Source: Zoogloea sp. | GTDB taxonomy: Bacteria > Pseudomonadota > Gammaproteobacteria > Burkholderiales > Rhodocyclaceae | Direction of reading: 5' to 3' | NCBI RefSeq assembly: GCF_030157465.1 | Contig: NZ_JAOAUU010000142.1 | Location: 1-36,453, forward strand | Length of the DNA stretch: 36,453 bases | Shown: piece by piece, positions 5,871 through 36,163 of the stretch | How the letters are laid out: each line of letters opens with the position of its first letter | Position numbering within the stretch: position 1 is the first letter of the stretch | Position numbers and translations under genes: made by a program | Notes under the pieces: model-generated | Told to the model about the DNA's origin: nothing | Databases searched by the model: none | What the model saw: only the letters and a program-made list of their open reading frames with translations

Positions 5871-5890
5871 AACAAACCGTCGTGTTCGTT
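5871..5890. promoter_or_regulatory. Putative operator, copy 1
   Basis: AACAAACCGTCGTGTTCGTT fits AACnAACnnnnnnGTTnGTT perfectly. Its length and symmetry are typical of a TetR-family dimer site. It is 172 bases upstream of pntAA. The 22491 copy matches it at 15 of 20 positions. Confidence 0.65.
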
Positions 5891-6002
5891 TTTAATAGTA
5901 AGCATAAAAATCCGGCCTGCCAAGCTCTTTCGATCAATTTGTTGTGTGCTTTGCCAAAACGCTGCCCGGCTTGCGCCAGCACGTGAACGCCCGCTCATTA
6001 AA

Positions 6003-6022
6003 AACCATCAAACTTGTTTTTT
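6003..6022. promoter_or_regulatory. Putative operator, copy 2 (weaker)
   Basis: AACCATCAAACTTGTTTTTT fits the same consensus with two mismatches in the twelve fixed positions and matches the copy at 22491 at 16 of 20 positions. It lies 73 bases upstream of the thiolase ATG. The T-rich right half makes chance similarity more likely than for the other copies. Confidence 0.45.
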
Positions 6023-6095
6023 TGATAAGATCTGATCACACCCGGCCCTGCTGCCGGAATGCAGCACATCACCCACCCAAGGAACGGACTCCATC

Positions 6096-7280
6096 ATGAC
6101 GCAGCGTGAAATCCTCGTAGTCGGCACCGCCCGCACCGCCATTGGCACCTATGGCGGCAGCCTCAAGGACACTCCCCTCAGCCAGCTCGCCACCACCGCA
6201 GTCAGCGCCGCGCTGGCCCGCTCCGGTGTCGACGCCGCGGAAGTCGGCCATGTGGTGATGGGCAACGTGATCCCCACCGAACCCCGCGACGCCTACCTGA
6301 GCCGCGTGGCCGCCATCGACTCGGGCATTCCCATCGAAACGCCGGCCTTCAACGTAAACCGCCTGTGTGGTTCCGGGCTCCAGGCCATCGTTTCGGCGGC
6401 CCAGTCGATCCTGCTGGGTGATACCGACATCGCCATCGGCGGCGGCGCCGAGGCCATGAGCCGCGGCCCCTACATCCTGCCGACCCTGCGCTGGGGCGCG
6501 CGCATGGGTGACACGCCGGCTCTCGATTACATGAACGGAATCCTCCACGACCCGTGGCAGAAGTTCCACATGGGCGTCACCGCCGAAAACGTCGCCGCCC
6601 GCTACGGCATCACCCGCGAAATGCAGGACGCCCTCGCCCTGGAAAGCCAGCAGCGCGCCGTTCGCGCCATTGCCGAAGGCCGTTTCCGGGACCAGATCAC
6701 CCCGGTTGAAATCAAGACCCGCAAGGGCATGGTGGCCTTTGACACCGACGAGCACGTGCGCGGCGACGTGAGCCTCGAAGCCCTGAGCAACATGAAAGCC
6801 ATCTTCCAGAAAGGCGGCACCGTAACGCCGGGCAACGCCTCCGGCCTCAACGATGGCGCGGCCGCCGTGGTGCTGATGGAAGCCAGGCGCGCGGCAACGT
6901 TGGGCGTCAAGCCGCTGGCCCGCCTGGTGGGCTATGCCCACGCCGGCGTCGAACCGGCCTACATGGGCATCGGCCCGGTTCCGGCCACACGCCTCGTGCT
7001 GCAGCGCACCGGGCTGCGCATCGAGGATCTGGACGTCATCGAGGCCAACGAGGCCTTTGCCGCCCAGGCCTGCGCAGTCACCCGCGAACTCGGCCTCGAT
7101 CCGGCCAAGGTGAACCCCAACGGCTCGGGGATTTCCCTCGGCCATCCGGTCGGCGCCACCGGCGCCATCATCACCACCAAGGCCATCGCCGAACTGCACC
7201 GCAGCGGCGGCCGCTACGCGCTGGTGACCATGTGCATCGGCGGCGGCCAGGGCATCGCCGCAATCTTCGAACGCATTTAA
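6096..7280 (+). CDS. Acetyl-CoA acyltransferase (beta-ketothiolase)
   Basis: This 394-residue degradative/biosynthetic thiolase carries all expected catalytic residues: the nucleophile Cys91 in NRLCGSG, His350 in GHPVGATG and Cys380 in CIGGGQG. It cleaves a 3-ketoacyl-CoA with CoA to acetyl-CoA and a shortened acyl-CoA, or runs in reverse. BktB/PhaA-like enzymes have this length. The 3-hydroxyacyl-CoA dehydrogenase gene follows 27 bases later, so the pair performs the last two steps of beta-oxidation. AAGGA precedes the ATG. Substrate chain length cannot be told from sequence. Confidence 0.93.
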
Positions 7281-7307
7281 CAACACCCCCGAACAAGGAG
7301 ACGAAGC

Positions 7308-8156
7308 ATGGCAATCAAGACAATCGGAGTGATCGGTGCCGGCACCATGGGCAACGGCATCGCGCAGGTGTGCGCAGTGGCGGGCCTGGACGTGGTGATG
7401 GTGGATATATCGGCCGACGCCGTTCAGCGCGGGCTGGGCGTGGTGGCGGGCAGCCTCGACCGGCTGCTCAAGAAGGAAAAGATCACCCAGGCCGACCGGG
7501 ATGCCGCCGTCGCCCGGATTCGGGGCTCCACGGCCTACGCGGATCTGGCCGGCGCCGATCTCGTGATCGAGGCGGCCACCGAGAACGAAGGCCTCAAGCT
7601 GCGCATCCTCAAGGAGATCGACGCGATCGTTTCACCGGCCGCCGTCATCGCCAGCAACACCTCGTCCCTGTCCATCACCAAGCTTGCCGCCGCGGTGTCG
7701 CATCCGGATCGGTTCGTCGGCATGCACTTCTTCAATCCGGTGCCGCTGATGGCCCTGGTCGAACTGATTCGCGGCCTGCAAACCTCCGACGCCACCCTGG
7801 CCGCGGCCCAGGGTTTTGCCGCCACCATCGGCAAAACCGCCATCGTGGCCAGAAACAGCCCGGGCTTCGCGGTGAACCGCATCCTGTGCCCGATGATCAA
7901 CGAGGCCATCTTTGCGCTGCAGGAAGGCCTTGCCAGCGCCGCCGACATCGACGAAGGCATGAAGCTCGGCTGCAACCACCCCATCGGCCCCCTGGCCCTG
8001 ACCGACCTGATCGGCCTTGACACCATGCTGGCAGTGATGGAAATGTTCTACGCCGGCTTCAACGACCCCAAGTACCGGCCTGCGCCGCTGCTCAAGGAAA
8101 TGGTGGATGCCGGCTACCTCGGTCGCAAGAGCGGCCAGGGTTTCTACAGCTACTGA
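7308..8156 (+). CDS. 3-hydroxyacyl-CoA (3-hydroxybutyryl-CoA) dehydrogenase
   Basis: This 282-residue soluble enzyme oxidises (S)-3-hydroxyacyl-CoA to 3-ketoacyl-CoA with NAD(P)+. The Rossmann motif VIGAGTMGNGIA occupies residues 7-18. The family segments IASNTSSLSIT and MHFFNPVPLMALVE (with the catalytic His) follow, and the C-terminal domain ends with GYLGRKSGQGFYSY. The length is typical of the single-function PaaH/Hbd type. A strong AAGGAG precedes the ATG. It works with the preceding thiolase and also offers a route for the 3-hydroxyacyl-CoA expected from the LvaC-like pathway. Confidence 0.94.
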   Translation: MAIKTIGVIGAGTMGNGIAQVCAVAGLDVVMVDISADAVQRGLGVVAGSLDRLLKKEKITQADRDAAVARIRGSTAYADLAGADLVIEAATENEGLKLRILKEIDAIVSPAAVIASNTSSLSITKLAAAVSHPDRFVGMHFFNPVPLMALVELIRGLQTSDATLAAAQGFAATIGKTAIVARNSPGFAVNRILCPMINEAIFALQEGLASAADIDEGMKLGCNHPIGPLALTDLIGLDTMLAVMEMFYAGFNDPKYRPAPLLKEMVDAGYLGRKSGQGFYSY

Positions 8157-8248
8157 CCCGCCCCCGCGTCCCGCCGTTGCCCGGTGAGCCGGGCGCGGCA
8201 GACCTCCGGGGCAGCCCCCTGCCCCGGCCAACCGGAGCCCTCCACCCT

Positions 8249-8950: not shown

Positions 8951-9000
8951 AAAGGCCCCCACCAAAACCTGCCCAAAAATTCAAAGGAGCGAGACAAGCA

Positions 9001-9783: not shown

Positions 9784-9798
9784 GCCATGAAAGCCTGA

Positions 9799-9899
9799 GT
9801 AGGTCGGGTTAGCCCGCAGGGCGTAACCCGACATCGGACGTGTCCATCAATGTTCATGTTGGTGTCGGGTTACGCCCTGCGGGCCAACCCGACCTACCC
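9799..9899 (-). repeat. 95-bp inverted-repeat element, copy 2 (inverted)
   Basis: The arms are the same as at 11-104, but the asymmetric middle reads in the opposite direction, so the element is inserted in reverse orientation. The right flank continues CCCGTGCTGAAGTCGCCCC, which matches the flank of the copy at 36213 after an internal deletion. It lies between the SDR and enoyl-CoA hydratase genes. Confidence 0.85.
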
Positions 9900-13472: not shown

Positions 13473-14432
13473 CTACAGATCGAGAACAAGCAGCTTGCCT
13501 TTGGCGCGGGAGCAGCAGGGCATGAACTGGTCATTGGCGGCTTTTTCCTCGTCGGTGAAGTACTGGTCGCGGTGGTCGATCTCGCCGTCGAGCACCCGGG
13601 TCAGGCAGGTTCCGCACACGCCCTGCTCGCACGAAACCTCGATATTGACGCCGGCCTCGCGCAGGGCCACCACCACGGTCTTGGTGGGCGGCACGGTGAC
13701 GATCTTGCCGCTGCTGGCCAGCTTGACATCAAAGCTGCCATCGAGCGAGGTATCCACCTTCTGGCCGGCGAAGTATTCAAAGTGCACGCGCTCCTGCGGC
13801 CAGCCCAGCGTTGCCGCGCCCTGGGTGACAAAGTCGATGAAACCGCCCGGGCCGCAAACATACAGGTGGGTGTCGGCCGCAGCCCCGGCGAGCACCTCGG
13901 CGAGCTTGAGCTTCTGGTCGGCATCGCCGTCGTCGTAATGAAAATGCACCCGGTCGGCAAAGCGCGAGGCGCGGATGCGCTCGACAAAGGCGGCACGGTC
14001 GGCCGAGCGGGCGCAGTAATGCATCTCGAAATCGGCCCCGCTCTGGGCCAGGCGCTCGGCCATGCACAGGATGGGCGTCACGCCAATGCCGCCGGCAAAA
14101 AGCAGCGAGCGCCCCGCCGGCACCAGCGCAAAGTGGTTGCGCGGCGCGCTGATGCGCAGCACCTGCCCTTCCTGCAGCAGGTCATGCACCGCCGTGGAGC
14201 CGCCCCGGGATGCGGGGTCGCGCAGCACGCCGATCAGGTAACGGTGGGATTCGGTGGGGTCGTTGCACAGGGAATACTGGCGTACCAGGCCGGGCTTCAC
14301 CTCCACGTCGATGTGGGAGCCGGCGCTGAAGGGCGGCAGGCTGGCGCCTTCCAGCGGGGCCAGTTCCAGTGAAACGATGTCAGTGGCCTCGACAGCCTTG
14401 CGGCTGATGCGAACCGAGATTTGGGTGTCCAT
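13473..14432 (-). CDS. Ferredoxin-type oxidoreductase (FMN/NAD/2Fe-2S, VanB/phthalate-reductase-like)
   Basis: This 319-residue electron-transfer protein has domains in the order flavin-binding (RQYSLCND), NAD-binding (FAGGIGVTPILCMAERL; VCGPGGFIDF) and a C-terminal plant-type 2Fe-2S domain with CEQGVCGTC and a fourth Cys in MPCCSRAK. Class IA oxygenase reductases have this order. It most likely passes electrons from NADH to the Rieske oxygenase encoded in the same operon at 19425-20822, although five genes separate them. Confidence 0.92.
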   Translation of the reverse strand: MDTQISVRISRKAVEATDIVSLELAPLEGASLPPFSAGSHIDVEVKPGLVRQYSLCNDPTESHRYLIGVLRDPASRGGSTAVHDLLQEGQVLRISAPRNHFALVPAGRSLLFAGGIGVTPILCMAERLAQSGADFEMHYCARSADRAAFVERIRASRFADRVHFHYDDGDADQKLKLAEVLAGAAADTHLYVCGPGGFIDFVTQGAATLGWPQERVHFEYFAGQKVDTSLDGSFDVKLASSGKIVTVPPTKTVVVALREAGVNIEVSCEQGVCGTCLTRVLDGEIDHRDQYFTDEEKAANDQFMPCCSRAKGKLLVLDL

Positions 14433-14459: not shown

Positions 14460-16106
14460 CTATGCCTCGAGGCGCTGGCGAATGTCGGCGCGCAGGCGGT
14501 CCTTGCGAATCTTGCCCGAGGCAGTGCGCGGAAAATCCTCCACGACCACCAGGCACTCCGGGTATTTCTGCCTCGCGACGCCGCTGGCGGCGACAAAGCC
14601 CAGCACGCTGTCGAGGTTCAGCTTCTCGTCGCCGGGCCTGGCGATCACGTAGGCGCACAGGGTTTCGCCGAGGCGCGCGTGAGGCATCGCAACCACCGCG
14701 GCCTCGCGGATCTGGGGCATGCGGTGAAGAATGTCCTCCACTTCCTTGGCGCTGACCTTTTCGCCGCCCCGGTTGATCAGATCCTTCTTGCGCCCGGTAA
14801 CCACGATGGCACCTTCCTGGGTCACGCGGCCCAGGTCGCCCGTGGCGAAGAAGCCCTCCGCGTCGAAACTGGCCGCAGTGGCGTCCGGGTCGCCGTAGCC
14901 CAGGAACATGGACGGCCCGCGCACGCAGATTTCACCCTCCTGGCCAAAGGACAGCGGATGCCCTTCGTCATCGAGGATGCGCACTTCGTAATCGGCGATC
15001 CGGCCATCGGTGGTGGCGGCCAGTTCCATTTCGCCCTCGCCGCAAAAGCCAAGGGTGGTCAGCGGCACTTCGCTGGAGCCATACACCCGGAAGGCGCGGC
15101 ACTGCTCAAGCACCTCATAGGCCTTGCCGATCAGGGCCGGCGGCACCTCGGCGCCCCCGCAGGCAAAAACCTGCAGGCTGGGCAGGCGACGCCCGGTTTT
15201 TTCGGCGGCACCCAGCAACTCGTGAAGAAAGGGCGTGGCGCCGACGCTGGCGGTGACCCGCTCGGCATCGATCAGGTCAAGGGCCTCGTCGGCGCTCCAG
15301 CGTTCCATGAAAACCGTGCGGCTGTCGCTGCAAAAGGGCAGCTCCATGCCGCTCTGGCCGGTAACGTGGGTTACCGGCGAGGCCATCAGCAACACGTTGG
15401 CGATGCCGGCAATGTCCGAACCCCGCGACCAGGTTTCAAAGGCCCGCTCGAGGCGCAGCGGCCCGGTGTTGTGGGTGTGCAGCACGCCCTTCGGCCGCCC
15501 GGTGGTGCCGGACGTGTAAAGAATCATCTTCACCGCGTTGGCGTCCACCTTGGGGCGTTCGGCCAGGCGCCGGCCTTCGCCCACCAGGGCGTCGTAGCTG
15601 CCGCTCTCGCCGCCGTCGCTGCGCACCGGAATGTGCAGCCTGAGGCGCGGCAGTTCCGGCGCCAGGCGCTGCATCATCGCCGCGTACTCGAAACCCCGGT
15701 AACTGGCCGGATAGAACGCGGCCTTGACGCCGGCGTCGGCCAGCATGAAGGCCACTTCGGTGTCCCGGTAGATCGGCACGATGGGCGCCACGACCAGGCC
15801 CAGCATCGTCGTGGCGAGGTCGATGACCACCGCCTCGCGCCAGTTGGGCAACTGAAAACTCACCACGTCGCCCGCTTCCAGCCCACGCTGCTGCAGGGCG
15901 GCCGCAAGCATCTCGGCCTCGGCCAGCAGTTCGCTGACCGTGCAGCGCTGCTCGCCAAAAACGTGGGTGACCCGCTCGGGATCGCGGGCCGCCAGTTCGT
16001 AGGCAAAATCGGCGAGGGTCTTGCCGGGCCAGTCGCCACTGGCGGTGTATCGCTGAATCAGGGCGTCGTCGAGGCGCACCTGCCAGCCGCTTACGTCCGT
16101 GCGCAT
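14460..16106 (-). CDS. AMP-binding acyl-CoA ligase
   Basis: This 548-residue ANL-superfamily ligase activates a carboxylic acid with ATP and CoA. The P-loop motif YTSGTTGRPKG covers residues 197-207. The ATGDLGR and GRKKDLINRGGEKVSAKEVE hinge region follows, and the C-terminus has SGKIRKDRLR with the conserved catalytic Lys. It probably forms the CoA ester of the growth substrate or an intermediate. It is similar in design to cyclohexanecarboxylate or fatty-acid ligases, and is a candidate LvaE counterpart. It lies 12 bases after the preceding dehydrogenase stop. Confidence 0.9.
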   Translation of the reverse strand: MRTDVSGWQVRLDDALIQRYTASGDWPGKTLADFAYELAARDPERVTHVFGEQRCTVSELLAEAEMLAAALQQRGLEAGDVVSFQLPNWREAVVIDLATTMLGLVVAPIVPIYRDTEVAFMLADAGVKAAFYPASYRGFEYAAMMQRLAPELPRLRLHIPVRSDGGESGSYDALVGEGRRLAERPKVDANAVKMILYTSGTTGRPKGVLHTHNTGPLRLERAFETWSRGSDIAGIANVLLMASPVTHVTGQSGMELPFCSDSRTVFMERWSADEALDLIDAERVTASVGATPFLHELLGAAEKTGRRLPSLQVFACGGAEVPPALIGKAYEVLEQCRAFRVYGSSEVPLTTLGFCGEGEMELAATTDGRIADYEVRILDDEGHPLSFGQEGEICVRGPSMFLGYGDPDATAASFDAEGFFATGDLGRVTQEGAIVVTGRKKDLINRGGEKVSAKEVEDILHRMPQIREAAVVAMPHARLGETLCAYVIARPGDEKLNLDSVLGFVAASGVARQKYPECLVVVEDFPRTASGKIRKDRLRADIRQRLEA

Positions 16107-25556: not shown

Positions 25557-27336
25557 GGAGCCAACTTATCTGGGCAGCGTCAGCGCCGTGGCGGGCTCGT
25601 CCTTGACCGTAGAGTTGGCGCCGAAGGTGAACTCCGGTCTGCTGATCATTGGCGGAAAAACCCACCGTGTGGGCCAAGTTGGCAGCTTCGTCAGGATTCC
25701 CCAAGGGTATAACAACTTGTATGGCCTGATCGCCGAGACAAGCGAATCCTCCAGCGCTGATCAGGTCGGCAATCCGCATGAGACGGATCGGCGCTGGATC
25801 AAGATTGAATTGGTGGGCGAAACGATCGGCGACGAATTCGAGCGAGGTATCAGCCAATACCCCAGTATCAACGATGAGGCTCACTTGGTCATCGAGAGCG
25901 ACCTCAGAAAGATCTATGGCAGCGCAGACTCCGGCCAAATTGTCGTGGGCACGCTTTCGAGCTCGGACAGCATCAAGGTCAGTATCGACTTGGACAAGCT
26001 GGTGACCCGGCACTCCGCAGTGCTGGGATCGACAGGCTCCGGCAAGTCCACCAGCGTGTCCAGCCTGCTCAGGTCTATCGTGACGGATGAGCATGGAGAA
26101 ACCAGTTATCCAGCAGCGCGGATTGTGTTGATCGACATTCACGGAGAGTATTCGGCGGCGCTGGGCGATATCGCCTCCGTTTTCTCGGTCATCCCAAAAG
26201 AAGGGGAAACCAAACTTCATATTCCCTACTGGTGCGTTTCATCCGAAAATCTAATCGATTTTCTTTGCGGTCCGATTTCTGAGGGCAATAGGAGCTTGAT
26301 TTTTGATCGCATTGTGGAGCAGAAGATTGCGTTTATTAAAAACAACGTCCTCCAGGGAATCGATCTAGGGCGGGTTTCGGCGGATACGCCCATCCCGTTC
26401 AATTTAAAAAAAATCTGGCACGACTTAATGGTCTATGATAATGCCAACTGGGAAGACGAAGAAAAGACGATTCCTTCTTTCACTGAAAAAGGGGACGCGG
26501 AGAGTCTGAGTCCGCCGAAATTCAAGCCGCCTAGCGCAGGGAAGGCCGCACCACATAAAGGTAACGGCGGTGTGATGAAAAAGCAGCTCGATTTGATGCG
26601 GTCCCGCCTATTGGACAATCAATTTTCTTTTTTCATGACCCCTGGAGATTGGCAGCCAGACGCCGACTTGAAAGTGAAAAAAGATCTGCCAGAGCTCATC
26701 AAGAGCTGGCTGGGGCACGATAAGCCGATCACCATTCTCGACCTTTCGGGCATGCCTTCAGCACGCTTGGATTTACTGTTGGGGTCCGTGCTGGAGATTA
26801 TTTTTGAGTCCGCTTTATGGGGGCGCAACTACAAGGAGGGCATGAAAAGTAGGCCGGTACTGCTGGTGCTGGAAGAGGCTCACCGCTACCTGTCTACTGG
26901 TGCGGTCGGCTTGGCCAAGGGCATGGTGCAGAAGATTGCGAAGGAGGGGCGGAAGTTTGGTGTCGGCGCGATGCTGGTCAGCCAAAGGCCCTCCGAAATC
27001 GATGAAACAATCTTGTCTCAGTGCGGAACACTCTTCGCTCTAAGGATCAATAACGCAACAGATCGCAGTCGCGTGAAGTCGGCCATGTCGGAGGGGATAT
27101 CCGGGATCGTGGACAGCTTGCCGGTACTTCGAACCGGGGAGGCCGTTATCGCTGGCGAGGCAGCCCGGTTGCCTATGCGTTGCCGGTTCAAGCTGCCGCG
27201 AGAAGGGCACTTCCCGGATAGCAAGGACCCAGTTGTCGCCACAAGCTGGTCCAAGGCGGTGGGCAAGGAAGATTACTCGGCACTTGTGTCTGCGTGGCGC
27301 AATCAGGACCCAAGCGCTGCGCAAAAGAAGGACTAA
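25549..27336 (+). CDS. HerA-like ATPase (partner of SIR2)
   Basis: This 595-residue HerA/FtsK-superfamily ATPase has an N-terminal HAS-barrel-like region (YLGSVSAVAGSSLTVELAPK), a Walker A motif GSTGSGKSTS (Lys166), Walker B VLLVLEEAHRY (Glu442-Glu443) and the arginine-finger area (NNATDRSRVK). HerA forms hexameric rings that assemble with SIR2 in a large complex and control its NADase. GTG at 25549 is preferred: TGAGG lies about 10 bases upstream, the overlap with SIR2 is only 8 bases, and family members begin close to this point. GTG at 25501 would add 16 residues. Confidence 0.92.
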   Translation: MNKEPTYLGSVSAVAGSSLTVELAPKVNSGLLIIGGKTHRVGQVGSFVRIPQGYNNLYGLIAETSESSSADQVGNPHETDRRWIKIELVGETIGDEFERGISQYPSINDEAHLVIESDLRKIYGSADSGQIVVGTLSSSDSIKVSIDLDKLVTRHSAVLGSTGSGKSTSVSSLLRSIVTDEHGETSYPAARIVLIDIHGEYSAALGDIASVFSVIPKEGETKLHIPYWCVSSENLIDFLCGPISEGNRSLIFDRIVEQKIAFIKNNVLQGIDLGRVSADTPIPFNLKKIWHDLMVYDNANWEDEEKTIPSFTEKGDAESLSPPKFKPPSAGKAAPHKGNGGVMKKQLDLMRSRLLDNQFSFFMTPGDWQPDADLKVKKDLPELIKSWLGHDKPITILDLSGMPSARLDLLLGSVLEIIFESALWGRNYKEGMKSRPVLLVLEEAHRYLSTGAVGLAKGMVQKIAKEGRKFGVGAMLVSQRPSEIDETILSQCGTLFALRINNATDRSRVKSAMSEGISGIVDSLPVLRTGEAVIAGEAARLPMRCRFKLPREGHFPDSKDPVVATSWSKAVGKEDYSALVSAWRNQDPSAAQKKD

Positions 27337-27352
27337 CCAAGCAGGAGACACC

Positions 27353-27562
27353 ATGGAAATGCAATTTGTTGACTCGTCGAACATTGAGCGTATTGGCTAC
27401 GACTTCAGCTCAAGCACTTTGCGCATTGAGTTCAAGTCGAACCGGACATACGACTACGCAAATGTCCCTGAATACATTTTTAATGAACTAAGAAACGCGT
27501 CGTCGGTTGGTAGCTATCACGCGAGGAATATCAAAAATATCTATCCTTACACCGAAATCTGA
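27353..27562 (+). CDS. KTSC-domain protein
   Basis: This 69-residue protein has the KTSC fold pattern: short strands with SSNIERIGYDFSSSTLRIEF, then YDYANVPEYIFNELRNASSV and SYHARNIKNIYPY. KTSC domains occur alone or at the C-terminus of some proteins, and the function is unknown. ATG at 27353 behind AGGAG starts 16 bases after HerA, so it is very likely the third gene of the SIR2-HerA operon. It might assist the system, for instance as a substrate or regulator; this is only a suggestion from position. Confidence 0.85.
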   Translation: MEMQFVDSSNIERIGYDFSSSTLRIEFKSNRTYDYANVPEYIFNELRNASSVGSYHARNIKNIYPYTEI

Positions 27563-27701
27563 AGGTTCCTTGAACGGCAATCGAATAGGGCTGTTTTCGG
27601 CCAGAAGCTGCCGGATGCCTAATCTGGTTGGCTGGCTGTTTTAGGTAACATAGTCGTTAGATTTTCGAGCAACTGCAAAGATCAGTTACTCACTCAGTGA
27701 A

Positions 27702-29048
27702 ATGTCGATGCAACTCCACACTTGTCCAAAAGCTCATAAGGTAAAAATGATTTGTTCAGCTTGTGTCACGCATCCGTCTCTCAGGGATCTAGTCAACTGC
27801 AAGGGGCAGTTCGGTACATGTAGCTATTGCAAAAATACTGGAGCAACTGTTGAAACCAAATTTCTTTTTGACTATATCTACGAATGTGTAAGGGAGAACA
27901 TAGCCGCAGAAGACGACCTGTCGAACTTCGAGCATGTAATGCTCTACGAGTGTGGTTCTGATCAGATTGCAGTCAGCACTTGCGACGTAATTTTTGAGGA
28001 TTGGTTCAATCTTCAGGACGAAGTTTTCTATGATGAACTCTGCGATAGTGTCCCTGCCGATTTCAAAACCAACAGTCACGGCAACGAAACCCATTTTTAT
28101 GAAGACAATGGTCTTTTGGAGCACAACTTCTATGAAAACAAGTGGGCTAACTTTATTGACGAAATCAGGCACGCCCACCGATTTTTCAATCCAACTGCTC
28201 GTGGCTTCCTTGATTCGGTTTTTAAATTCCTTGTCTCGAGCAACGACGAGCTAAAGCCTGAAATCATTCGAACACTCAATAAAGGAACTGAACTGTTTCG
28301 TGCTCGCAGTGCCGATAGCTACGAAAAAGCAAAGGAGATTGCTGGTAGCCCAGCTTTACAGCTCGGCCCTACACCTAAGGATAAAGCCAGTAGCCAGCGG
28401 ATGACTCCGAACGGAATTTCAGCTTTGTACTGCGCCTTGGAACGGAGCACATGCTTGAGCGAAATTCGTTCTATTACTGGTGACGATGTGATCAGTGTTG
28501 CACTGACCCCGATTACAACTTTGAAACTATTGGACTTGACCAAACTGGAGGAGGTCGAAGCCCCTAAGCTGACTTTGCTAGACATGGGCTATCGTGATGC
28601 CTTACACCTTAAGACCTTCTTGAGGTCGTTGGTGAAGAAGATGTCTAAGCCCAAGGGTAGAAACGATGAGTTGAGCTATCTGTCCACTCAGGTTGTCTTC
28701 GAGTACCTACGGCTTCGTTTTGGAAAGCAGGTAGACGGTCTTATTTTTCCGTCTGTGCAGACAGGAAACAAAGGCACTAACCTTGTATTATTCCCAGAGG
28801 CTGGTGTTATCAGTAAATATCAATATGAACCACCTCATGAGATGGATATAGCCTTGGGTGTCAAGTCGCCTGTTGCTTTTGCATCAAATGAAAAGCTTGC
28901 GGTCATAAGCGGATCTGTTCGCTTTCACAAGATAAAGGCCATCAAAACAGAGGCCACCACATACCGGACACTTCACGACTTTTATATGAGCGATGAAGTT
29001 CGTAATCAGCTTGGCTTTGGTATTGATACAGGGGTTGAAGAGTTGTAA
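27702..29048 (+). CDS. HEPN/RES-type protein (putative NAD+-degrading toxin-like RES domain)
   Basis: This 448-residue protein starts with a zinc ribbon (Cys18, Cys21, Cys33, Cys40, Cys43), then a middle domain rich in acidic and aromatic residues, like the N-terminal domain of HEPN/RES proteins. The C-terminal half resembles a RES domain: ELFRARSAD (Arg200, Arg202), CLSEIR (Glu254) and YLSTQVVFEYL (Ser328). RES toxins consume NAD+, so this would be the second NAD+-attacking protein of the island. No antitoxin (Xre/COG5654-like) is next to it. The start is ATG at 27702; no strong ribosome-binding site is seen. Confidence 0.75.
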   Translation: MSMQLHTCPKAHKVKMICSACVTHPSLRDLVNCKGQFGTCSYCKNTGATVETKFLFDYIYECVRENIAAEDDLSNFEHVMLYECGSDQIAVSTCDVIFEDWFNLQDEVFYDELCDSVPADFKTNSHGNETHFYEDNGLLEHNFYENKWANFIDEIRHAHRFFNPTARGFLDSVFKFLVSSNDELKPEIIRTLNKGTELFRARSADSYEKAKEIAGSPALQLGPTPKDKASSQRMTPNGISALYCALERSTCLSEIRSITGDDVISVALTPITTLKLLDLTKLEEVEAPKLTLLDMGYRDALHLKTFLRSLVKKMSKPKGRNDELSYLSTQVVFEYLRLRFGKQVDGLIFPSVQTGNKGTNLVLFPEAGVISKYQYEPPHEMDIALGVKSPVAFASNEKLAVISGSVRFHKIKAIKTEATTYRTLHDFYMSDEVRNQLGFGIDTGVEEL

Positions 29049-29295
29049 GCTTTCTCGGCACGTTTAAGGTTCATGCAAAATAGGTCGTTTGGCCCTACTG
29101 GGTTGCATCGAGAAACTGACTCTATATAGAAAAGCAGTCGGCAATCGAAAAATTGCAAACGACAGTTATGGGTCGTGGGCTGTCTGTCAGATGGTTAGAA
29201 ACAGCCACGCGGCCCAATCGGTTGGTTGGAAATTGTACTTGGCAGTTGTCGGCCAGAAGCTCTGCATCACTAGCCAATGCTTAAGAAGGGTAAAT
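29049..29295. other. Intergenic spacer in the island
   Basis: This 247-base spacer follows the RES gene. A frame from a TTG at 29089 runs into the next gene but has no family match and no ribosome-binding site, so ATG at 29296 is taken as the start. No terminator or promoter was picked out. Confidence 0.5.
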
Positions 29296-29931
29296 ATGGA
29301 AGTGCCGATTAATTACAACGACGATTACTCGAATTCATACCGTAAGCAGCTATCCAATGCCATGCTGGAATCAAGGAAACTAGGCTTCATTCGAGATCCC
29401 ATCATCTCCGAACAGAGGTCGATTTCAGACAACACGCTACGTATCACACACGAGTTGGTGAGCGATCTCTCGGCCACTCTCGACTATGTTCTGCCCGAAT
29501 ATTGGGGAAACTCGTGCCAAACACTGTCAACGAACATTTTTGCCTATTTGAACCATCAGGGCATCGAGGCGAACATCGTTCTCGGCAATGTCATCATCAA
29601 TGGGACTGACGAATTTGAGGCGACACTGGAAAGCTTGCGGAAGGAAGTACTTGCCGCTGCACCTCTGACAGGACATCAAGCAGTTCACGCCTGGATTTCG
29701 TTAGGCGACGACACCATCATTGATGCCGCACTCCCCCCAAGGTTGGTCAAGCACTACAATGCCCCCCTCCGATTCAATGACATAATATTTATTGGCCGGG
29801 CGTCGGAAATGTCCTTTAAATACAAACTTAGGTACCAGCCAATCCTTGTTGGCACAGAGTTCTTTGCCAAGACGAATCCACCGGATCCAATGGACTTACT
29901 GACTGAACTAAAGCAACGACGCCTTCGATAA
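29296..29931 (+). CDS. Putative transglutaminase-like (Cys-His-Asp) protein
   Basis: This 211-residue soluble protein is not recognised at family level. It shows a Cys74 (GNSCQTLS), His131 (VHAWISLG) and Asp143 (IIDAALP) in the order and spacing of papain/transglutaminase-like catalytic triads, with a predicted beta-rich core between. Such proteins are proteases, transglutaminases or acyltransferases. ATG at 29296 has AAGGG 8 bases upstream. It lies 247 bases after the RES gene in the same direction and may be part of the same defence-type region. The Cys-His-Asp reading is mine and unproven. Confidence 0.6.
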   Translation: MEVPINYNDDYSNSYRKQLSNAMLESRKLGFIRDPIISEQRSISDNTLRITHELVSDLSATLDYVLPEYWGNSCQTLSTNIFAYLNHQGIEANIVLGNVIINGTDEFEATLESLRKEVLAAAPLTGHQAVHAWISLGDDTIIDAALPPRLVKHYNAPLRFNDIIFIGRASEMSFKYKLRYQPILVGTEFFAKTNPPDPMDLLTELKQRRLR

Positions 29932-29947
29932 CCTTTCGTTCGAAAGG
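29932..29947. terminator. Short hairpin after the Cys-His-Asp gene
   Basis: CCTTTCGTTCGAAAGG folds into a hairpin beginning just past the stop codon of the preceding gene. No T-run follows, so termination by this hairpin is uncertain. Confidence 0.35.
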
Positions 29948-29960
29948 GCCCCAAAACCCA

Positions 29961-30067
29961 CGTTGAACGTCAGCTTCCCCATGACTCGACTGTCCGTTCA
30001 GGGTCGGGAGTTCGCATTTGCAGGGTTGGAAAGCTGACGTTCGTGCCAATCTGCCGTTGAACGTCAG
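29961..30067. repeat. Direct and inverted short repeats at the end of the island
   Basis: CGTTGAACGTCAG occurs at 29961-29973 and 30055-30067. A perfect 12-base inverted repeat, GAACGTCAGCTT (29965-29976) with AAGCTGACGTTC (30031-30042), lies inside. The function is unknown. Confidence 0.6.
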
Positions 30068-30129
30068 GTAACCAATGCGTTGCCGACCGACAGCCGGCAG
30101 CAAGCCAATGGCAGCTCCGGTCGCCCCCC

Positions 30130-30640
30130 TCACCCAAACACCTCCTCCAAATACCCCAACAACACCTTGATCCGCGCCGGCTGATACCGCCGGCTCGGAT
30201 ACGCCACATACAGCGGCGACGGTTCCCCCCGCGCGTCCGGAAACAGATCCACCAGCCGCCCGGCTTCCAGATCGCCTTCCAAATCGAGCCGTGATTTGTA
30301 GACGATGCCTTGGCCTTGCACGGCCCAGTGGCGCACCAGTGCGCCGTCGTCGGCGGCGCGGTCGCCGCTGACGGTGACTTCGCGTTGCTGGCCCTGGTGG
30401 AAGAGGCGCCAGCGGTTGAACAGTTCGCCGTTGCGGTAGAAACAGATGCAGTTGCGGCGGGTCAGTTCTTCGACGCTGTCGGGCTGGCCGTGGCGGGCGA
30501 GGCGACGAGCACGCGGGTGTTGTCGCACAGCTTGCGGCCGATGAGCTTGGAATCCTGCGAGAGGCCGTAGCGCGGGACGAAGTCGATGAGGCCGTCCGAC
30601 AACAGGTGCATGACGAGACGCAGTTGCGGGTGGTGCTGGC
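30130..30640 (-). pseudogene. LysR-family regulator, C-terminal remnant with frameshift
   Basis: On the minus strand, LSDGLIDFVPRYGLSQDS and KLIGRKLCDNTRVLVASP resemble the ligand-binding domain of LysR regulators. After that the frame shifts near 30497, probably by a small deletion, and continues as RHGQPDSVEELTRRNCICFY to the end SRRYQPARIKVLLGYLEEVFG. The DNA-binding domain is missing. The upper limit is approximate. Confidence 0.7.
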
Positions 30641-30794
30641 CGATCTGGTGGACGAGGGGGCGGTGCGCAGCACGGCGCAGGTGCATCTGGGTTCGATCAA
30701 CGCCGCCAACCTGCGCCGCCCCCACGCGCTGGCCGAAAGCGGCACGGCGCTGGGCAAGATTGTGCTGGAGGGATTCGGGGCTGAGGGCGACTGA
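30606..30794 (+). pseudogene. C-terminal remnant of an MDR-type oxidoreductase
   Basis: The plus-strand frame encodes LGSINAANLRRPHALAESGT and GKIVLEGF, which is the usual C-terminus of zinc-type alcohol dehydrogenase or quinone reductase proteins, followed by five extra residues. The N-terminal 250 or more residues are absent. The stop TGA lies in the 18-bp palindromic repeat at 30785. It abuts the LysR remnant, with a junction near 30600-30640. Confidence 0.6.
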
Positions 30795-30802
30795 AGTCGC
30801 CC
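30785..30802. repeat. 18-bp palindromic repeat, perfect copy
   Basis: GGGCGACTGAAGTCGCCC follows directly on the oxidoreductase remnant and supplies its stop codon. Confidence 0.8.
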
Positions 30803-30862
30803 CTACCGCCGCCTCTGCAAAAGGGGCGGGTTAAAGGCGGACGGAGCGAGGGAACACAGCGA

Positions 30863-30892
30863 TGCGAGGTCGGGCACTGGCCCGACCTCGCA
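30863..30892. terminator. Strong 13-bp hairpin downstream of the TetR gene
   Basis: TGCGAGGTCGGGC and its exact reverse complement flank the loop ACTG. Read from the TetR gene it stands about 50 bases past the stop codon. There is no T-run, so it may protect the transcript end rather than act as a classical terminator. Confidence 0.5.
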
Positions 30893-30942
30893 GGGGAGAA
30901 AACGCTGGAAAACGCGGAAAAGCGGGAGGAAAAACGCGGCGC

Positions 30943-31770
30943 TTACGCCGAAGTAGTCTTGCGCGGCTTGCGGGCCTTGGGCGCGGCTTTGGGGTCAGAA
31001 TCAGACTCGGGCGTCGGCGTCGCCGGAATCTTGCTGCCGTGGGCGGCTTCGTAAGCTTTTTCAAACTCCATCATCGCCACCGAGGCGAGCAGGTGGTGAA
31101 GCCGGTGCAAACGATCACCCTTCATGTAGGGCGTCGGGTTGACCGCCACGCCCTTGAGGGAGTGGAAGAACAAGTCGCGCAGCACTTCGCCGGTTTCGGG
31201 GTAATCCGCCCAGAACGGAAAGCGCTTGAGCATGCTGGCGTTTTTCTTGTCGTCGAGCACCTTTTCGAGGGGCTCCATGACCTGCGCCAGCGCCTTGTCG
31301 GTGCGGGCGCCGCGCTGCAATTCCTGCAGGGCGATGAAGGAGGCGCGACCGTAGTAGTACTTTTGCAGCACGACCAAGGTGTCGAGCATGCTGTCGAAGG
31401 TGGCCAGGTTGCCGGGCGGCAGCTTGATGCGCCGGCAGGCATCTTCGTATTCGGCGGCGCGCAGCTCGGTGATGTACTCGGCGGCAGCCTCGAAAACGTC
31501 GGCCCGGGATTTGAAGTGATGGGTCATCGCCCCCCGGGAGACGCCGGCTTTCTGGGCGATCTTCTCGGTGGTGGTCTGGGTGTAGCCGAGTTCGACGAGA
31601 CATTGCAGCGTCGCGTCGAGAATCTGGGTGCGGGTGGCCAGGCTCTTCTCGGCCTGCCAGGTACCGCCGGCGGCCTTGCTGCGCGCCGCATCCCGCTTGG
31701 GCCGCGTGATCTTGCGAACCGGTGCGGGATCGGATTCGAGCAATGCGTTGGGGGTAGTGTCTTCTGTCAT
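30943..31770 (-). CDS. TetR/AcrR-family transcriptional regulator
   Basis: This 275-residue protein has an N-terminal helix-turn-helix (TTEKIAQKAGVSRGAMTHHF) of the TetR type and a variable ligand-binding domain. It has a basic, unstructured N-terminal extension and a Pro/Lys-rich C-terminal tail. ATG at 31770, with AGGGAG upstream, is chosen over TTG at 31800. It is the only intact transcription regulator in the window and thus the best local candidate to bind the shared palindrome. Its own upstream region lacks that site but has a different palindrome at 31933-31948. Confidence 0.9.
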   Translation of the reverse strand: MTEDTTPNALLESDPAPVRKITRPKRDAARSKAAGGTWQAEKSLATRTQILDATLQCLVELGYTQTTTEKIAQKAGVSRGAMTHHFKSRADVFEAAAEYITELRAAEYEDACRRIKLPPGNLATFDSMLDTLVVLQKYYYGRASFIALQELQRGARTDKALAQVMEPLEKVLDDKKNASMLKRFPFWADYPETGEVLRDLFFHSLKGVAVNPTPYMKGDRLHRLHHLLASVAMMEFEKAYEAAHGSKIPATPTPESDSDPKAAPKARKPRKTTSA

Positions 31771-31960: not shown

Positions 31961-32758
31961 CTACGACAAGCGAACCGAGTGTCCATAGTCCACCGTCAAG
32001 ACACTGCCATTCATGTACGACGAGGCATCACTGGCCAGCAGCAGCAGCGGGCCATCGAGTTCTTCCAGGCGGCCGAGGCGTTTGGCGGGCAGATTGGCGA
32101 TTTCCTTGATGCCGGCTTCGGATTCGTAGAACGGGTTGGTCATCTCGCTGGGGAAATATCCCGGCGCGATGGCATTGACCCGGATGCCGTGGCCAAGCAG
32201 GTCGAGCGCCATGTAGCGGGTCATGTGGATCAGCGCGCCCTTGGTGGTGCCGTAGTTCAGGAAGGCCGGATAGGCCAGGTGACCGAGGATGGAGGCGATG
32301 TTGATGATCGAGCCGCCCTTCCCCGCCGCGATCAGGCGCTGGACCACGGCCTGGGCGGCGTAATAGGGGCCAGAGAGGTTCACATCGAGCAGCGATGTCC
32401 ATTGCTCGTCGGACATCTGCTGAAAAACCGTGGGGTTGGACAAACCTGCGTTATTCACCAGGATGTCCACCGGCTGGCCAAAGTGGGCCTCGATGGCATC
32501 CAGCGCCGGGCCGATGGCGGCCTTGTCGGCCACGTCCATGCGGCAGGCCATGGCCTGGCCGCCGGCATCGCGAATGGCCTGGGCAACCGCTTCGACCCGC
32601 TCGACGCGGCGGGCCACGCAGGCCACCCGGGCCCCCGCTGCGGCCAGCACATGGGCCATGCGCTCGCCGATGCCGGAGCCGGAGCCGGTGACCAGGGCAA
32701 CCCGCCCCTCGAGGGAAAAACGTCCGAGGACTTCGCTTGCCTTGATTTGAATGGTCAT
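31961..32758 (-). CDS. SDR family oxidoreductase
   Basis: This 265-residue classical short-chain dehydrogenase has the cofactor motif TGSGSGIGERM (residues 24-34), NNAG, the catalytic Ser region IINIASILGH and YGTTKGA (Tyr, Lys). Arg residues after the second strand (CVARRVERVE) suggest NADP(H). It begins 33 bases after the E2 stop, so it is probably in the same operon as the 2-oxoacid dehydrogenase genes. Substrate unknown; 4-oxoacyl- or 3-oxoacyl-CoA reduction are possibilities. Confidence 0.9.
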   Translation of the reverse strand: MTIQIKASEVLGRFSLEGRVALVTGSGSGIGERMAHVLAAAGARVACVARRVERVEAVAQAIRDAGGQAMACRMDVADKAAIGPALDAIEAHFGQPVDILVNNAGLSNPTVFQQMSDEQWTSLLDVNLSGPYYAAQAVVQRLIAAGKGGSIINIASILGHLAYPAFLNYGTTKGALIHMTRYMALDLLGHGIRVNAIAPGYFPSEMTNPFYESEAGIKEIANLPAKRLGRLEELDGPLLLLASDASSYMNGSVLTVDYGHSVRLS

Positions 32759-32791
32759 ATTCTTGTCCCTTCTTCGAAGTGATGCTGGAAC

Positions 32792-33559
32792 TCAGGCCAG
32801 CGCAGCCGGATCGGCCAGCGCGTCGGCGATGAAGCGGGTGAAGCGCGCGGCATCCGCACCATTGATGACCCGGTGGTCATAGCTCAGCGACAGCGGCACC
32901 ACCGGCACGCTGCTTACCTGGCCGTCCACCAGCTTGAGGCGCTCGGCGCTGCGGGTGACACCAAGAATGGCCAGCTCGGGCGCGTTGATGATGGGCGTGA
33001 AACCGGTGCCGCCGAGGTTGCCCAGCGAGCTGATCGAGAAACAGCCACCGGACATCTCGCTCATCGGCAGGCCCTTGCCGCGGGCCCGTTCGGCCTTGTC
33101 GGCCAGCTCAAGGGCGATTTCGGAGATCGACTTCGTGTCGCAGTCGCGAATCACCGGCACCACCAGCCCGTTGGGCGTTTCAACCGCCACGCCGATGTGA
33201 AAGTAGTGCTTCATCACCAGCCCGTCGCCGGCGGGAGTCAGCGAGGCGTTGAAGCGCGGAAAGGCCTTGAGCGCCTTGACCGCCGCCTTGATCAGGAAGG
33301 GCACCGGGGTCAGCTTGATGCCCAGCTCGGCGCCCATCGTCTTGCGCACGGATTCCAGCGTGGGCACTTCGGCTTCGTCCTGATGGGTTACATGAGGAAT
33401 CTGGGCCCAGTTGCGGGCCAGAAACGAGGCCACCAGCTTCTGGTGACGGGGCAGCGCAAGCGTCTCGACTTCGCCGAACTGGGTGAAGTCCATGACCGGC
33501 ATGGGCGGCAGGCTGGCCGGCCAGGCCGGCGCTGCGGGGGCGTCGGGCTTGGCGCTCAT
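32792..33559 (-). CDS. 2-oxoacid dehydrogenase E2 acyltransferase, catalytic core only
   Basis: This 255-residue protein matches the C-terminal catalytic domain of dihydrolipoamide acyltransferases. The active-site motif is SYDHRVINGADAARF; the Asn instead of Asp in DHRxxxG occurs in some E2 proteins. Upstream domains are missing: no lipoyl domain and no subunit-binding domain are present, apart from a short 30-residue Pro/Ala-rich start. The lipoyl domain is encoded separately just upstream, and TGATG joins the two genes (one shared base). A longer frame to 33727 overlaps that gene and is not used. Confidence 0.88.
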   Translation of the reverse strand: MSAKPDAPAAPAWPASLPPMPVMDFTQFGEVETLALPRHQKLVASFLARNWAQIPHVTHQDEAEVPTLESVRKTMGAELGIKLTPVPFLIKAAVKALKAFPRFNASLTPAGDGLVMKHYFHIGVAVETPNGLVVPVIRDCDTKSISEIALELADKAERARGKGLPMSEMSGGCFSISSLGNLGGTGFTPIINAPELAILGVTRSAERLKLVDGQVSSVPVVPLSLSYDHRVINGADAARFTRFIADALADPAALA

Positions 33560-33789
33560 CACACCAGCTCGCCGATGACGGTGCCGACTTCGTAGGTTTC
33601 GCCGGCTTCCTTGAGAATCTTCAGGGTGCCGTCGGCCGGGGCTTCGACTTCCTGAACCGACTTTTCGCTCTCCATCGTGTAGAGCAGCTGGCCCTTGGAG
33701 ACTGCGCCGCCGTCCGGAATCATCCATTCGGTGAGGATGGCTTCGTTCACCGAAAAGCCGAGCTTGGGGAGAATGATTTCAGTTGCCAT
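33559..33789 (-). CDS. Free-standing lipoyl-domain protein
   Basis: This 76-residue protein is a lipoyl/biotinyl domain: ILPKLGFSVNEA at the start, and MESEKSVQEVEAPADG with the Lys that is lipoylated. It carries the acyl group between E1 and the E2 core. Normally this domain is fused to E2. The gene lies between E1 beta (43-base gap) and the E2 core. Lipoylation machinery is presumably elsewhere on the genome. Confidence 0.93.
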   Translation of the reverse strand: MATEIILPKLGFSVNEAILTEWMIPDGGAVSKGQLLYTMESEKSVQEVEAPADGTLKILKEAGETYEVGTVIGELV

Positions 33790-33832
33790 GATTGTGTCCT
33801 TTGAGTGTCTTCAGCCGGGGCCGGGTTGAATT

Positions 33833-34828
33833 TCAAGCGAGTGTTTCGCGGATGGCCGCGAGGATGCGTTCCCGGGTCGGCACGAAGGCCGTTTCCAGGG
33901 GCTTGGAGAAAGGCACGGGCGAGCGCGCCGCGCCCACCCGGGCGACCGGCGCCTTGAGCTGGCCGAAGAGTTCCTTGTGGAGACGGGCCGAAATCTCGGC
34001 ACCCACGCCAAAATCCACCTGGGCTTCGTGGGCCACCACGGCGCGGCCGGTCTTCCTGGCCGACGCGATGATCGTGTCCATGTCCAGCGGCGAAATGGTG
34101 CGCAGGTCGATCACCTCGGCCGCAATGCCTTCCTTGGCGAGACTCTTGGCCACGGCAATCACCTCGTGCAGGGTCTTGCTGTAGCTGATCAGGGTGATGT
34201 CGCTGCCTTCCTGAACCACCTTGGCCTTGCCGATGGGCACCCGCTCGCCCGGCACCGGCGCTTCGCCCGGCACGAAATACAGGGGCAGGTTCTCGATGAA
34301 GATGCACGGGTCGTCGTCGAAGATGCACGACAGCATCAGGCCGTAGGCGTCGGCCGGGGTCGACGGGGCCACCACCTTGAGGCCGGCGGTGTGGGCGAAC
34401 CAGGCTTCCAGGTAGTCGGCATGCTGGCCGCCGGTGCCAAAGCCGGCGCCGGTGGTGGTGCGGATCACCAGGGGCACATGGGTCTGGCCGCCGGTCATGA
34501 AGCGCAGCTTGGCCGCGTGGTTCACGATCTGGTCCATCGCCACGGTGGTGAAGTTCATCAGCATGATCTCGGCCACCGGGCGCAGGCCGGCCAGCGCGCC
34601 GCCCACCGCGGCACCCACAATCGCCTGCTCGGCGATCGGCGTGGATTTGACCCGGCCGGTGCCAAACCTGGTCGATAGGCCGGCGGTGCACTTGAACACC
34701 CCGCCGCCTTCGCGGTCGGCAATGTCCTCGCCGAGCACGACCACCGAGCTGTCCAGCTCCATGGCGTCGTGAAGGGCCATGTTGATGGCCTGGACGATGT
34801 TGATCTTCTTGGCTTGAACGGTGCTCAT
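33833..34828 (-). CDS. 2-oxoacid (pyruvate/acetoin-type) dehydrogenase E1 beta subunit
   Basis: This 331-residue transketolase C-terminal-type subunit has GEDIADREGGGVFKCTAGL, then FGTGRVKSTPIAEQAIVGAA and GGQHADYLEAWFAHTAGLKV. It pairs with E1 alpha as an alpha2-beta2, thiamine-diphosphate-dependent decarboxylase. The overlap with the E1 alpha gene is 4 bases. The acid used (pyruvate, acetoin, branched or unusual 2-oxoacid) is not clear. Confidence 0.94.
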   Translation of the reverse strand: MSTVQAKKINIVQAINMALHDAMELDSSVVVLGEDIADREGGGVFKCTAGLSTRFGTGRVKSTPIAEQAIVGAAVGGALAGLRPVAEIMLMNFTTVAMDQIVNHAAKLRFMTGGQTHVPLVIRTTTGAGFGTGGQHADYLEAWFAHTAGLKVVAPSTPADAYGLMLSCIFDDDPCIFIENLPLYFVPGEAPVPGERVPIGKAKVVQEGSDITLISYSKTLHEVIAVAKSLAKEGIAAEVIDLRTISPLDMDTIIASARKTGRAVVAHEAQVDFGVGAEISARLHKELFGQLKAPVARVGAARSPVPFSKPLETAFVPTRERILAAIRETLA

Positions 34829-35811
34829 GCTTGGGCTCCCTCGGCAACGACATCCTTGTCGAGTTCGGATACATCGGGATAAGGGCTGGCAAGGCCGAAC
34901 TCGACGGCCTCCTCGAAGGCGGCCACGTTGGTGGCTTCGATGTCGGACAACTGGCCGTCGCTGGCGTGGCCCTCTTCAATCAGCCAGGCGCGGAAGCGCG
35001 GCAGCGGGTCGGCGGCAATGGCGGCGGCCATTTCTTCCTTGGGGATGTAATGGCTGTCGTCGCCCATCAAATGGCCCCGGAAACGGAAGGTGTTGGCTTC
35101 CAGCAGGGTCGGGCCGTCGCCGGCGCGGGCGCGGGCAATGGCGGTGCTGGCCGCCTGCCACATGGCAACGGCGTCGTTGCCGTCCACCTCGACACCGGGA
35201 ATGCCATAGGCCAGGCCGCGGTCGGCGATGGTGGCGGCGCCGGTGCCGTATTCATATTTGGTGTGCTCGGCGTAGCCGTTGTTCTGGCACACGAAGATCA
35301 CCGGCAGCTTCCACACGGCCGCCAGGTTGAGCGCCTCGTGAAAGGCGCCGATGTTGCTGGCGCCGTCGCCGAAGTTCACCACCGTGACCTGGTCGGTGCC
35401 CTTCAGCTGCGATGCCCAGGCCAACCCGTTGGCGATCGGCAGGCCGGCGCCGACGATGCCGGTGGTAACCGGCAGGCCGGAGGCCACGTGGGTCACGTGC
35501 ATCGGCCCGCCCTTGCCCTTGCAGGTGCCGGTGGCGCGGCCAAACAGTTCGGCCACGAAGGGCTTGAGCGGAATGCCCTTGGCCAGCTGGTCGTGGATGC
35601 CCCGGTAGGTGGTGACCACGTAATCGCTGGGCTTGAGGCTCACCGAAATGGCCGCCGGAATCAGCTCCTGACCACGCGGCGAGTAATACGGCGACGCGAT
35701 CTGGCCGGCCTTGATCAGCTCGATGAAGCGGTCGTCGGCTGTCTTGATCAGCGTGGCGATCCGGTAAATATCCAGCAGGACGTCCCTGCCGGGCTGTTTT
35801 GTCTCACTCAT
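34825..35811 (-). CDS. 2-oxoacid (pyruvate/acetoin-type) dehydrogenase E1 alpha subunit
   Basis: This 328-residue subunit carries the thiamine diphosphate motif, which runs from GDGASNIGAFHEALNLAAV to the NN of CQNNGYAE. The N-terminal part (YSPRGQELIPAAI) and RATGTCKGKGGPMH are typical of E1 alpha. It is the first gene of an operon E1 alpha, E1 beta, lipoyl domain, E2 core, SDR. No E3 (lipoamide dehydrogenase) gene is present. The palindromic operator at 35918 lies 107 bases upstream of its ATG. Confidence 0.94.
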   Translation of the reverse strand: MSETKQPGRDVLLDIYRIATLIKTADDRFIELIKAGQIASPYYSPRGQELIPAAISVSLKPSDYVVTTYRGIHDQLAKGIPLKPFVAELFGRATGTCKGKGGPMHVTHVASGLPVTTGIVGAGLPIANGLAWASQLKGTDQVTVVNFGDGASNIGAFHEALNLAAVWKLPVIFVCQNNGYAEHTKYEYGTGAATIADRGLAYGIPGVEVDGNDAVAMWQAASTAIARARAGDGPTLLEANTFRFRGHLMGDDSHYIPKEEMAAAIAADPLPRFRAWLIEEGHASDGQLSDIEATNVAAFEEAVEFGLASPYPDVSELDKDVVAEGAQA

Positions 35812-36163
35812 GCCCTACCTCTCGAATGGGTTGGTGACGCGGGTTTCGGGTCCGGTGGCTAATCCGGCAAACAGGGTTCTTGCTTCAGCTCGCTGCTGCC
35901 TGGGCAGTTGCAAACAAAACCAACAATCCCGTTTGTTTTTTTAAAGTATATCGGCAGTACATGGGCTGCACAAGGGGAGAAGACGAGGGAATTCCGAAGG
36001 GCGCGAAATGCCTTTGCCGGGCAGGCTTTCCCGCTACGTCTTGAGGGCCGGCGCAGCGGATTCCGGCACGCAAGCCGCTCCGCTTCTATGATGGAATCAG
36101 CCACCACGTCACCGTCACCGTTACCAGCGGAATCTTTGCGGCGGCTAATGGTGCTGTGCCTTT
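35812..36163. other. Promoter region upstream of the E1 operon
   Basis: This 352-base noncoding region contains the operator at 35918-35937 in an AT-rich patch and otherwise GC-rich sequence with no convincing gene. The two open frames on either strand here lack family features. Confidence 0.5.
35918..35937. promoter_or_regulatory. Putative operator, copy 4
   Basis: AACCAACAATCCCGTTTGTT is a perfect match to AACnAACnnnnnnGTTnGTT. It is 107 bases upstream of the E1 alpha ATG. Confidence 0.68.

Follow-up and report, generated by a model that had tools for sequence, protein, structure and literature searches.

The contig analysed here (NZ_JAOAUU010000142.1 of Zoogloea sp., 36,453 nucleotides, referred to as the window) carries four copies of a 20 base pair (bp) palindrome, AACnAACnnnnnnGTTnGTT, each lying upstream of a separate set of catabolic genes. 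The palindrome is quite probably the operator of one catabolic regulon, with the TetR-type protein encoded at 30943–31770, denoted TetR1, as its ligand-released repressor. The window is the entire contig C142 of a 4.7 megabase genome (G000) in 174 contigs. The four sites and the candidate regulator are arranged as follows.

Operator 1: 5871–5890, 172 bp upstream of the pntA start (5698, minus strand), no mismatches
Operator 2: 6003–6022, 73 bp upstream of the bktB start (6096, plus strand), two mismatches
Operator 3: 22491–22510, 24 bp upstream of the DUF35 start (22466, minus strand), one mismatch
Operator 4: 35918–35937, 106 bp upstream of the E1-alpha start (35811, minus strand), no mismatches
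TetR1, candidate repressor: 30943–31770, minus strand, inferred start ATG at 31770 (open frame to 31800), last gene of the string behind operator 4

These copies were returned by a scan of the window allowing up to two mismatches, together with an extra, shifted register that overlaps operator 4 (35922–35941, two mismatches). Dinucleotide shuffles of the window (n = 100) gave a mean of 0.55 matches (standard deviation 0.83, maximum 4), and none reached five. The copies are AT-rich in a window of 62.7% G+C. The original prediction of four copies, unlike their GC-rich surroundings and each in the promoter region of a different unit, is thus borne out, all four lying 24–172 bp upstream of genes. 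In the genome as a whole, nine places match with at most one mismatch, including one overlapping register, compared with two for a reversed control pattern.

The sites are conserved within the genus. Six Zoogloea genomes carry the TetR1 gene (G000 is one of them; G013, G015, G017, G018 and G021 are the other genome labels used here), and in a gapped alignment of these six, counting 20 operator bases and 80 flanking columns per site, operators 1, 3 and 4 each have 19 invariant bases. Invariant flanking columns number 29 of 80 at operator 3 and 27 of 80 at operator 4, so that the footprint contrast is clear at these two sites; at operator 1 it is weak. Operator 2 keeps 11 of its 20 bases, with 11 of 80 in its flanks, and its promoter has a one-mismatch copy in each of the five other genomes. 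The close pairs G017/G018 and G015/G021 reduce the comparison to about four independent lineages. The presence of conserved AT-rich bases abutting operators 1, 3 and 4 suggests that promoter elements lie there.

The distribution of perfect sites follows that of the TetR1 gene. Among 100 genomes (that of the window and 99 relatives), a close ortholog of TetR1 (83–100% identity) was found in six, all of the window's genus. Every one of the six has two to four perfect sites, 19 places in total, and the genes behind them are pntA (six, including one in G018 where just the first pntA codons precede the contig end), E1-alpha (six), a second Rieske gene (four), a third Rieske gene (two) and a GMC gene (one). 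Outside this set, five of 94 genomes have one perfect site each. The reversed control occurs perfectly at 20 places in 15 genomes, none of them among the six. Fisher tests, not corrected for relatedness, give 3.9e-7 over the 100 genomes and 9.9e-6 within the genus (6/6 against 0/17, several of the 17 TetR-less congeners being incomplete assemblies, 72–89%). With one mismatch allowed, ten TetR-less congeners gave five forward and 28 control matches. Two outcomes had been named as grounds for abandoning the prediction, a motif scattered at random and orthologous promoters that keep no copies, and neither is what is seen: each of the 19 perfect places in the six genomes lies before an enzyme gene of the kind found on the island, and the six Zoogloea genomes keep the sites, as do, less strictly, Thauera, Pseudomonas and a Vitreoscilla metagenome-assembled genome (MAG).

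A matrix trained on the Zoogloea sites alone was then applied to loci of Thauera, Halopseudomonas, Pseudomonas, Pseudoduganella and the Vitreoscilla MAG, comprising 12 of the 13 non-Zoogloea loci with a TetR at least about 48% identical; the thirteenth (L064) lacks both promoters beside its TetR gene, and its top place, at 3207 (score 18.6), lies about 118 bp behind that gene. In all 22 cases from the 12 loci, the sites in the E1-alpha and DUF35 promoters rank first to third within about 17–21 kilobases (kb): the operator 4 counterpart is at rank 1–3 in 12 of 12 loci and the operator 3 counterpart at rank 1–2 in the ten that have a DUF35 promoter. Permuted matrices that preserve the palindrome average 12.2 of 22, since the promoters are AT-rich, with a largest value of 21; none of 300 reached 22. 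The summed score over the 22 windows was reached by none of 1000 permuted matrices, and for 20 of the 22 single windows the score was reached by at most 34 of 1000. By the plain consensus, many Pseudomonas copies carry two or three mismatches.

More distant TetR genes (26–46% identity; loci L070–L085, of which ten were scored) do not serve as clean negative controls, because several of these loci score best just upstream of their own TetR gene. The top operator-like places of this kind are L082:9796 (26.6), L075:9809 (13.2), L076:9832 (6.9) and L070:9811 (5.8); the scores are mostly weak. These positions hint that a related operator may serve a broader group of TetR regulators.

Several observations weigh against a single TetR1 regulon. 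The flanks of operator 1 are themselves well kept (49 of 80 columns invariant). With one mismatch allowed, forward and reversed-control counts in the six genomes are 9/2, 5/3, 9/6, 9/9, 8/6 and 10/1, or 50 against 27, and three one-mismatch places in the window's genome (C44 near metH, C46 and C135) have no catabolic link. Co-occurrence stems partly from shared inheritance, with TetR and most operators on one island, and alone is no proof of interaction. In the held-out loci, which were found by the peptide VSRGAMTH or a WQAEKS-like one and thus chosen for a like helix, two Pseudoduganella E1-alpha windows do not stand out from permuted matrices (235 and 130 of 1000), and promoter copies with three mismatches in Pseudomonas and Pseudoduganella are reached by 9–42 of 300 shuffles. 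Finally, a TetR paralogue (37–43% identity) occurs in G000, G013 and G017 at E≤1e-20, and that of G017 has the same VSRGAMTHHF helix. One more such point, that AT-rich promoters favour any AT-rich matrix, would also suit a reading in which the matches play no part in regulation and are chance occurrences, or a repeat element, in intergenic DNA rich in A and T, as would the genome with nine forward and nine control matches, G017. Given the shuffles, the permuted matrices, the conservation at fixed promoters, the lack of perfect sites in 17 of 17 TetR-less congeners and the lack of sites at other pnt promoters (see below), this explanation was rejected; we regard it as exceedingly improbable.

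TetR1 has the features expected of the regulator. Its N-terminal helix-turn-helix is recognized by Pfam TetR_N (2.6e-14; 53.2 bits against 24), and its AlphaFold2 model, of ten helices with a mean pLDDT (predicted local distance difference test) of 87.3, has the all-helical TetR fold. The best-ranked among 50 PDB matches listed are TetR-type regulators; the solved structures match at 14–22% identity, and so give no ligand. The TetR gene is flanked by the short-chain dehydrogenase/reductase (SDR) gene that belongs to the E1/E2 string and by the DUF35 operon, with an operator in the gap between the two, in loci of Zoogloea, Thauera, Pseudomonas, Halopseudomonas and Vitreoscilla. The original choice of the TetR at 30943 as candidate regulator is supported, as far as gene content and order can indicate, by the co-occurrence and by this position in relatives, where an operon with an operator lies on either side. 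All 22 aligned TetR sequences share the peptide VSRGAMTH unchanged, an invariance that partly reflects selection since most loci were found through it, and it does not separate TetR1 from the paralogue.

The paralogue may act as a second binder of the sites. A further possibility is one regulon with another island protein as its regulator, above all the paralogue (G000:C129:9501, 43%) or a BetI-like TetR encoded beside the GMC gene in G017. The recognition helix of the G017 paralogue is identical and that of G000 begins alike, and the BetI-like gene adjoins a site. However, the paralogue is confined to three genomes, whereas sites occur in all six, and it is TetR1 itself that stands between both sites in the Thauera, Pseudomonas and Vitreoscilla loci; we consider this alternative unlikely. 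A role for TetR1 as an activator, or as a dual regulator, at the sites it binds appears quite improbable. The operator-to-start distances (24 to 172 bp) leave room for differing promoter geometry, but conserved promoter-like bases abut three of the operators, which is only suggestive, and most studied members of the TetR family are repressors.

In the favoured model, of repression by TetR1, a TetR dimer would occupy each 20-bp site, beside or over the core promoters of the pnt, bktB, DUF35-thiolase-Rieske-ligase and E1/E2-SDR-TetR units, and additional Rieske and GMC genes on other contigs would come under the same control. Release would be brought about by a pathway intermediate, most likely a coenzyme A (CoA) thioester or the acid itself. 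The palindrome is present in the target promoters, and TetR1 would come under its own control through operator 4 only if the string behind it is one transcript; with its gene last in that string, the repressor may limit its own synthesis.

The genes behind the four operators are listed in the order of each string.

Behind operator 1:
4574–5698, minus strand: pntA, transhydrogenase alpha subunit, island duplicate (NCBIfam PRK09424, 4.7e-109; 365 bits against a cut-off of 383)
2870–4264, minus strand: pntB (Pfam PNTB, 1e-164)
1764–2825, minus strand: APH-type kinase, co-oriented with pnt
201–1379, minus strand: acyl-CoA dehydrogenase, co-oriented with pnt
Behind operator 2:
6096–7280, plus strand: bktB thiolase
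7308–8156, plus strand: 3-hydroxyacyl-CoA dehydrogenase
Behind operator 3:
22032–22466, minus strand: DUF35/ChsH2-type OB-fold protein (Pfam OB_ChsH2_C, zf-ChsH2)
20859–22010, minus strand: SCP-x-type thiolase-fold enzyme that probably pairs with the DUF35 protein (Pfam Thiolase_C_1; top PDB sequence match SCP2-thiolase 6hsj)
19425–20822, minus strand: Rieske oxygenase alpha subunit (Pfam Rieske, Ring_hydroxyl_A)
18397–19428, minus strand: ADH_N_2 reductase
17207–18388 and 16119–17210, minus strand: pair of acyl-CoA dehydrogenases
14460–16106, minus strand: acyl-CoA ligase
13473–14432, minus strand: flavin reductase, of ferredoxin/flavin adenine dinucleotide (FAD) type
Behind operator 4, ahead of TetR1:
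34825–35811, minus strand: E1-alpha (Pfam E1_dh, 2e-73)
33833–34828, minus strand: E1-beta (Pfam Transket_pyr, Transketolase_C)
33559–33789, minus strand: stand-alone lipoyl-domain protein, 76 amino acids (Pfam Biotin_lipoyl, 3e-14)
32792–33559, minus strand: E2 acyltransferase, catalytic part only (Pfam 2-oxoacid_dh, 1.2e-71; open frame 32792–33727, inferred start ATG at 33559)
31961–32758, minus strand: SDR oxidoreductase (Pfam adh_short)

The E1-alpha gene is the single copy found in its genome at E≤1e-30. The E2 is split, the stop of the lipoyl-protein gene overlapping the inferred E2 start (TGATG), and the same arrangement is seen in Thauera (L056), P. tumuqii (L061) and Vitreoscilla (L066). 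The gene of the thiolase-fold enzyme adjoins that of the DUF35/ChsH2 protein, as in Sal/Ltp2-DUF35 retro-aldolase modules. From this gene content, the pathway looks CoA-dependent, with a Rieske oxygenation and a thiolase-fold/DUF35 pair resembling the steroid side-chain aldolases outlined in PMC12329534. A steroid, an ibuprofen-type aryl-propionate and a terpenoid were considered as substrates, and none was established. G017 encodes a KstD-like FAD protein; its score is 131 bits, where the cut-off for a 3-ketosteroid dehydrogenase is 789.

The predicted inclusion of the transhydrogenase and the 2-oxoacid dehydrogenase complex in the regulon is supported, and the set appears larger than the four units proposed, with sites on contigs C29 and C129. 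The scan of the genome with at most one mismatch located a site at C29:3441, 162 bp before a Rieske gene, and another at C129:28880, directly before a GMC gene behind which lie genes for a flavin mononucleotide (FMN) oxidoreductase, an SDR and a Rieske protein. The C29 region (3441–5014, L010) has a second Rieske gene with a perfect operator; a gene near it looks fabI-like by eye, and the counterpart of this Rieske gene adjoins E1-alpha in Z. oleivorans and G021. A profile (R1) was built from 22 of the 23 Zoogloea sites, one shifted site being left out, and used to score 150 of the 477–573 first-look candidates per genome. Among the 150 scored in the window's genome it found eight distinct places, seven of them before catabolic genes and the eighth being C46; six of the seven were training sites, and the new one, C129:586, precedes a Rieske gene. 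Operator 2 was found at E 0.19, though itself in the training set. R1 also has a match in G021 at 414563, and found no places among the scored candidates of two TetR-less congeners. In the Rieske gene behind C129:586 (C129:658–1782, L122), the reading frame ends after a match to no more than the beginning of the catalytic domain, and the gene may be frame-shifted or misassembled.

The pntA gene is duplicated in the window's genome, with the island copy and a second one on C49. The island pntA has a perfect site in all five genomes where this copy was found whole, and 18 of 18 other pntA copies (16 genomes searched) have no match with fewer than three mismatches in the 300 bp upstream. The pnt copy named in the original prediction accordingly keeps its place in the regulon as an island duplicate; control of pnt genus-wide by the same switch was rejected.

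In the window, the TetR gene appears far from operator 3 because an insert separates the two.

22531–30942 (boundaries approximate), about 8.4 kb: insert absent from five related islands, with NERD, SIR2, HerA and RES genes

Nucleotide collinearity with the related islands stops at 22523–22527 and restarts at 31007–31037, inside the TetR gene; a weak likeness to G017 may extend to about 22570. SIR2 and HerA are identified by PADLOC (1.8e-171 and 6.2e-151), NERD and RES by Pfam. The insert starts no more than about 60 bp from operator 3 and carries a defence system of the SIR2-HerA type. Inverted repeats resembling GGGGCGACTnnAGTCGCCCC recur between genes at 36160–36400 and on C129 near 500, and one of similar form lies in G017 between operator 3 and the TetR gene.

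For a degradation island shared by Zoogloea, Thauera and Pseudomonas, the analysis provides a specific operator, a candidate regulator and a list of genes. Zoogloea are floc bacteria of wastewater. The operator can be used to find more genes of the pathway, the ligand of the regulator would point to the substrate, and a duplicated transhydrogenase is tied to one catabolic switch. It is possible, if somewhat doubtful, that a hitherto undescribed TetR regulon has persisted in both beta- and gammaproteobacteria through its pairing of regulator and operator, placing a dedicated duplicate of the proton-translocating transhydrogenase, a split-E2 2-oxoacid dehydrogenase and a Rieske/retro-aldolase pathway under one switch; redox supply and carbon flow would then be co-induced by a single CoA-thioester ligand, and operators would travel with relocated genes such as the C29 Rieske gene. 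A literature search, judged by titles and the starts of abstracts, found no paper on this regulon, and among the papers listed for the half-site letters combined with TetR there was no lead.

The KstR and KstR2 regulons use short palindromic operators; the KstR motif probably differs from the Zoogloea palindrome. TetR1 is not a KstR ortholog: KstR chains are only weak fold matches (template modelling score 0.45–0.48 by query, 15–16% identity), and the sequence search names no KstR. In mycobacterial cholesterol catabolism (PMC3068626), KstR and KstR2 are likewise TetR-type repressors over CoA-dependent ring and side-chain catabolic genes. The Zoogloea set, unlike theirs, includes a duplicated transhydrogenase and a 2-oxoacid dehydrogenase. 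The Sal/Shy and Ltp2/ChsH2 retro-aldolase modules of steroid side-chain catabolism (PMC12329534) likewise have a thiolase-fold gene beside a DUF35/ChsH2-type partner, with a ligase and acyl-CoA dehydrogenases. The likeness is one of gene neighbourhood; the Zoogloea DUF35 protein has no hydratase domain in Pfam, and Rieske and E1/E2 genes belong to the set.

The enzyme set is also present on pNL2, a plasmid of Novosphingobium aromaticivorans, where a look-up found no named pathway attached to it. DUF35, thiolase, acyl-CoA dehydrogenase, E1-alpha, E1-beta and E2 genes are consecutive there, and Rieske, GMC and SDR genes lie nearby; the E2 is annotated as a single protein of 480 amino acids, in contrast with the split E2 of Zoogloea. 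No TetR is present among the 23 annotated features in 25 kb, a gene table that is incomplete, and a LuxR-type regulator is found instead. With the enzyme set occurring in those 25 kb beside no annotated TetR, the pairing of regulator and operator appears to be an addition to a wider module.

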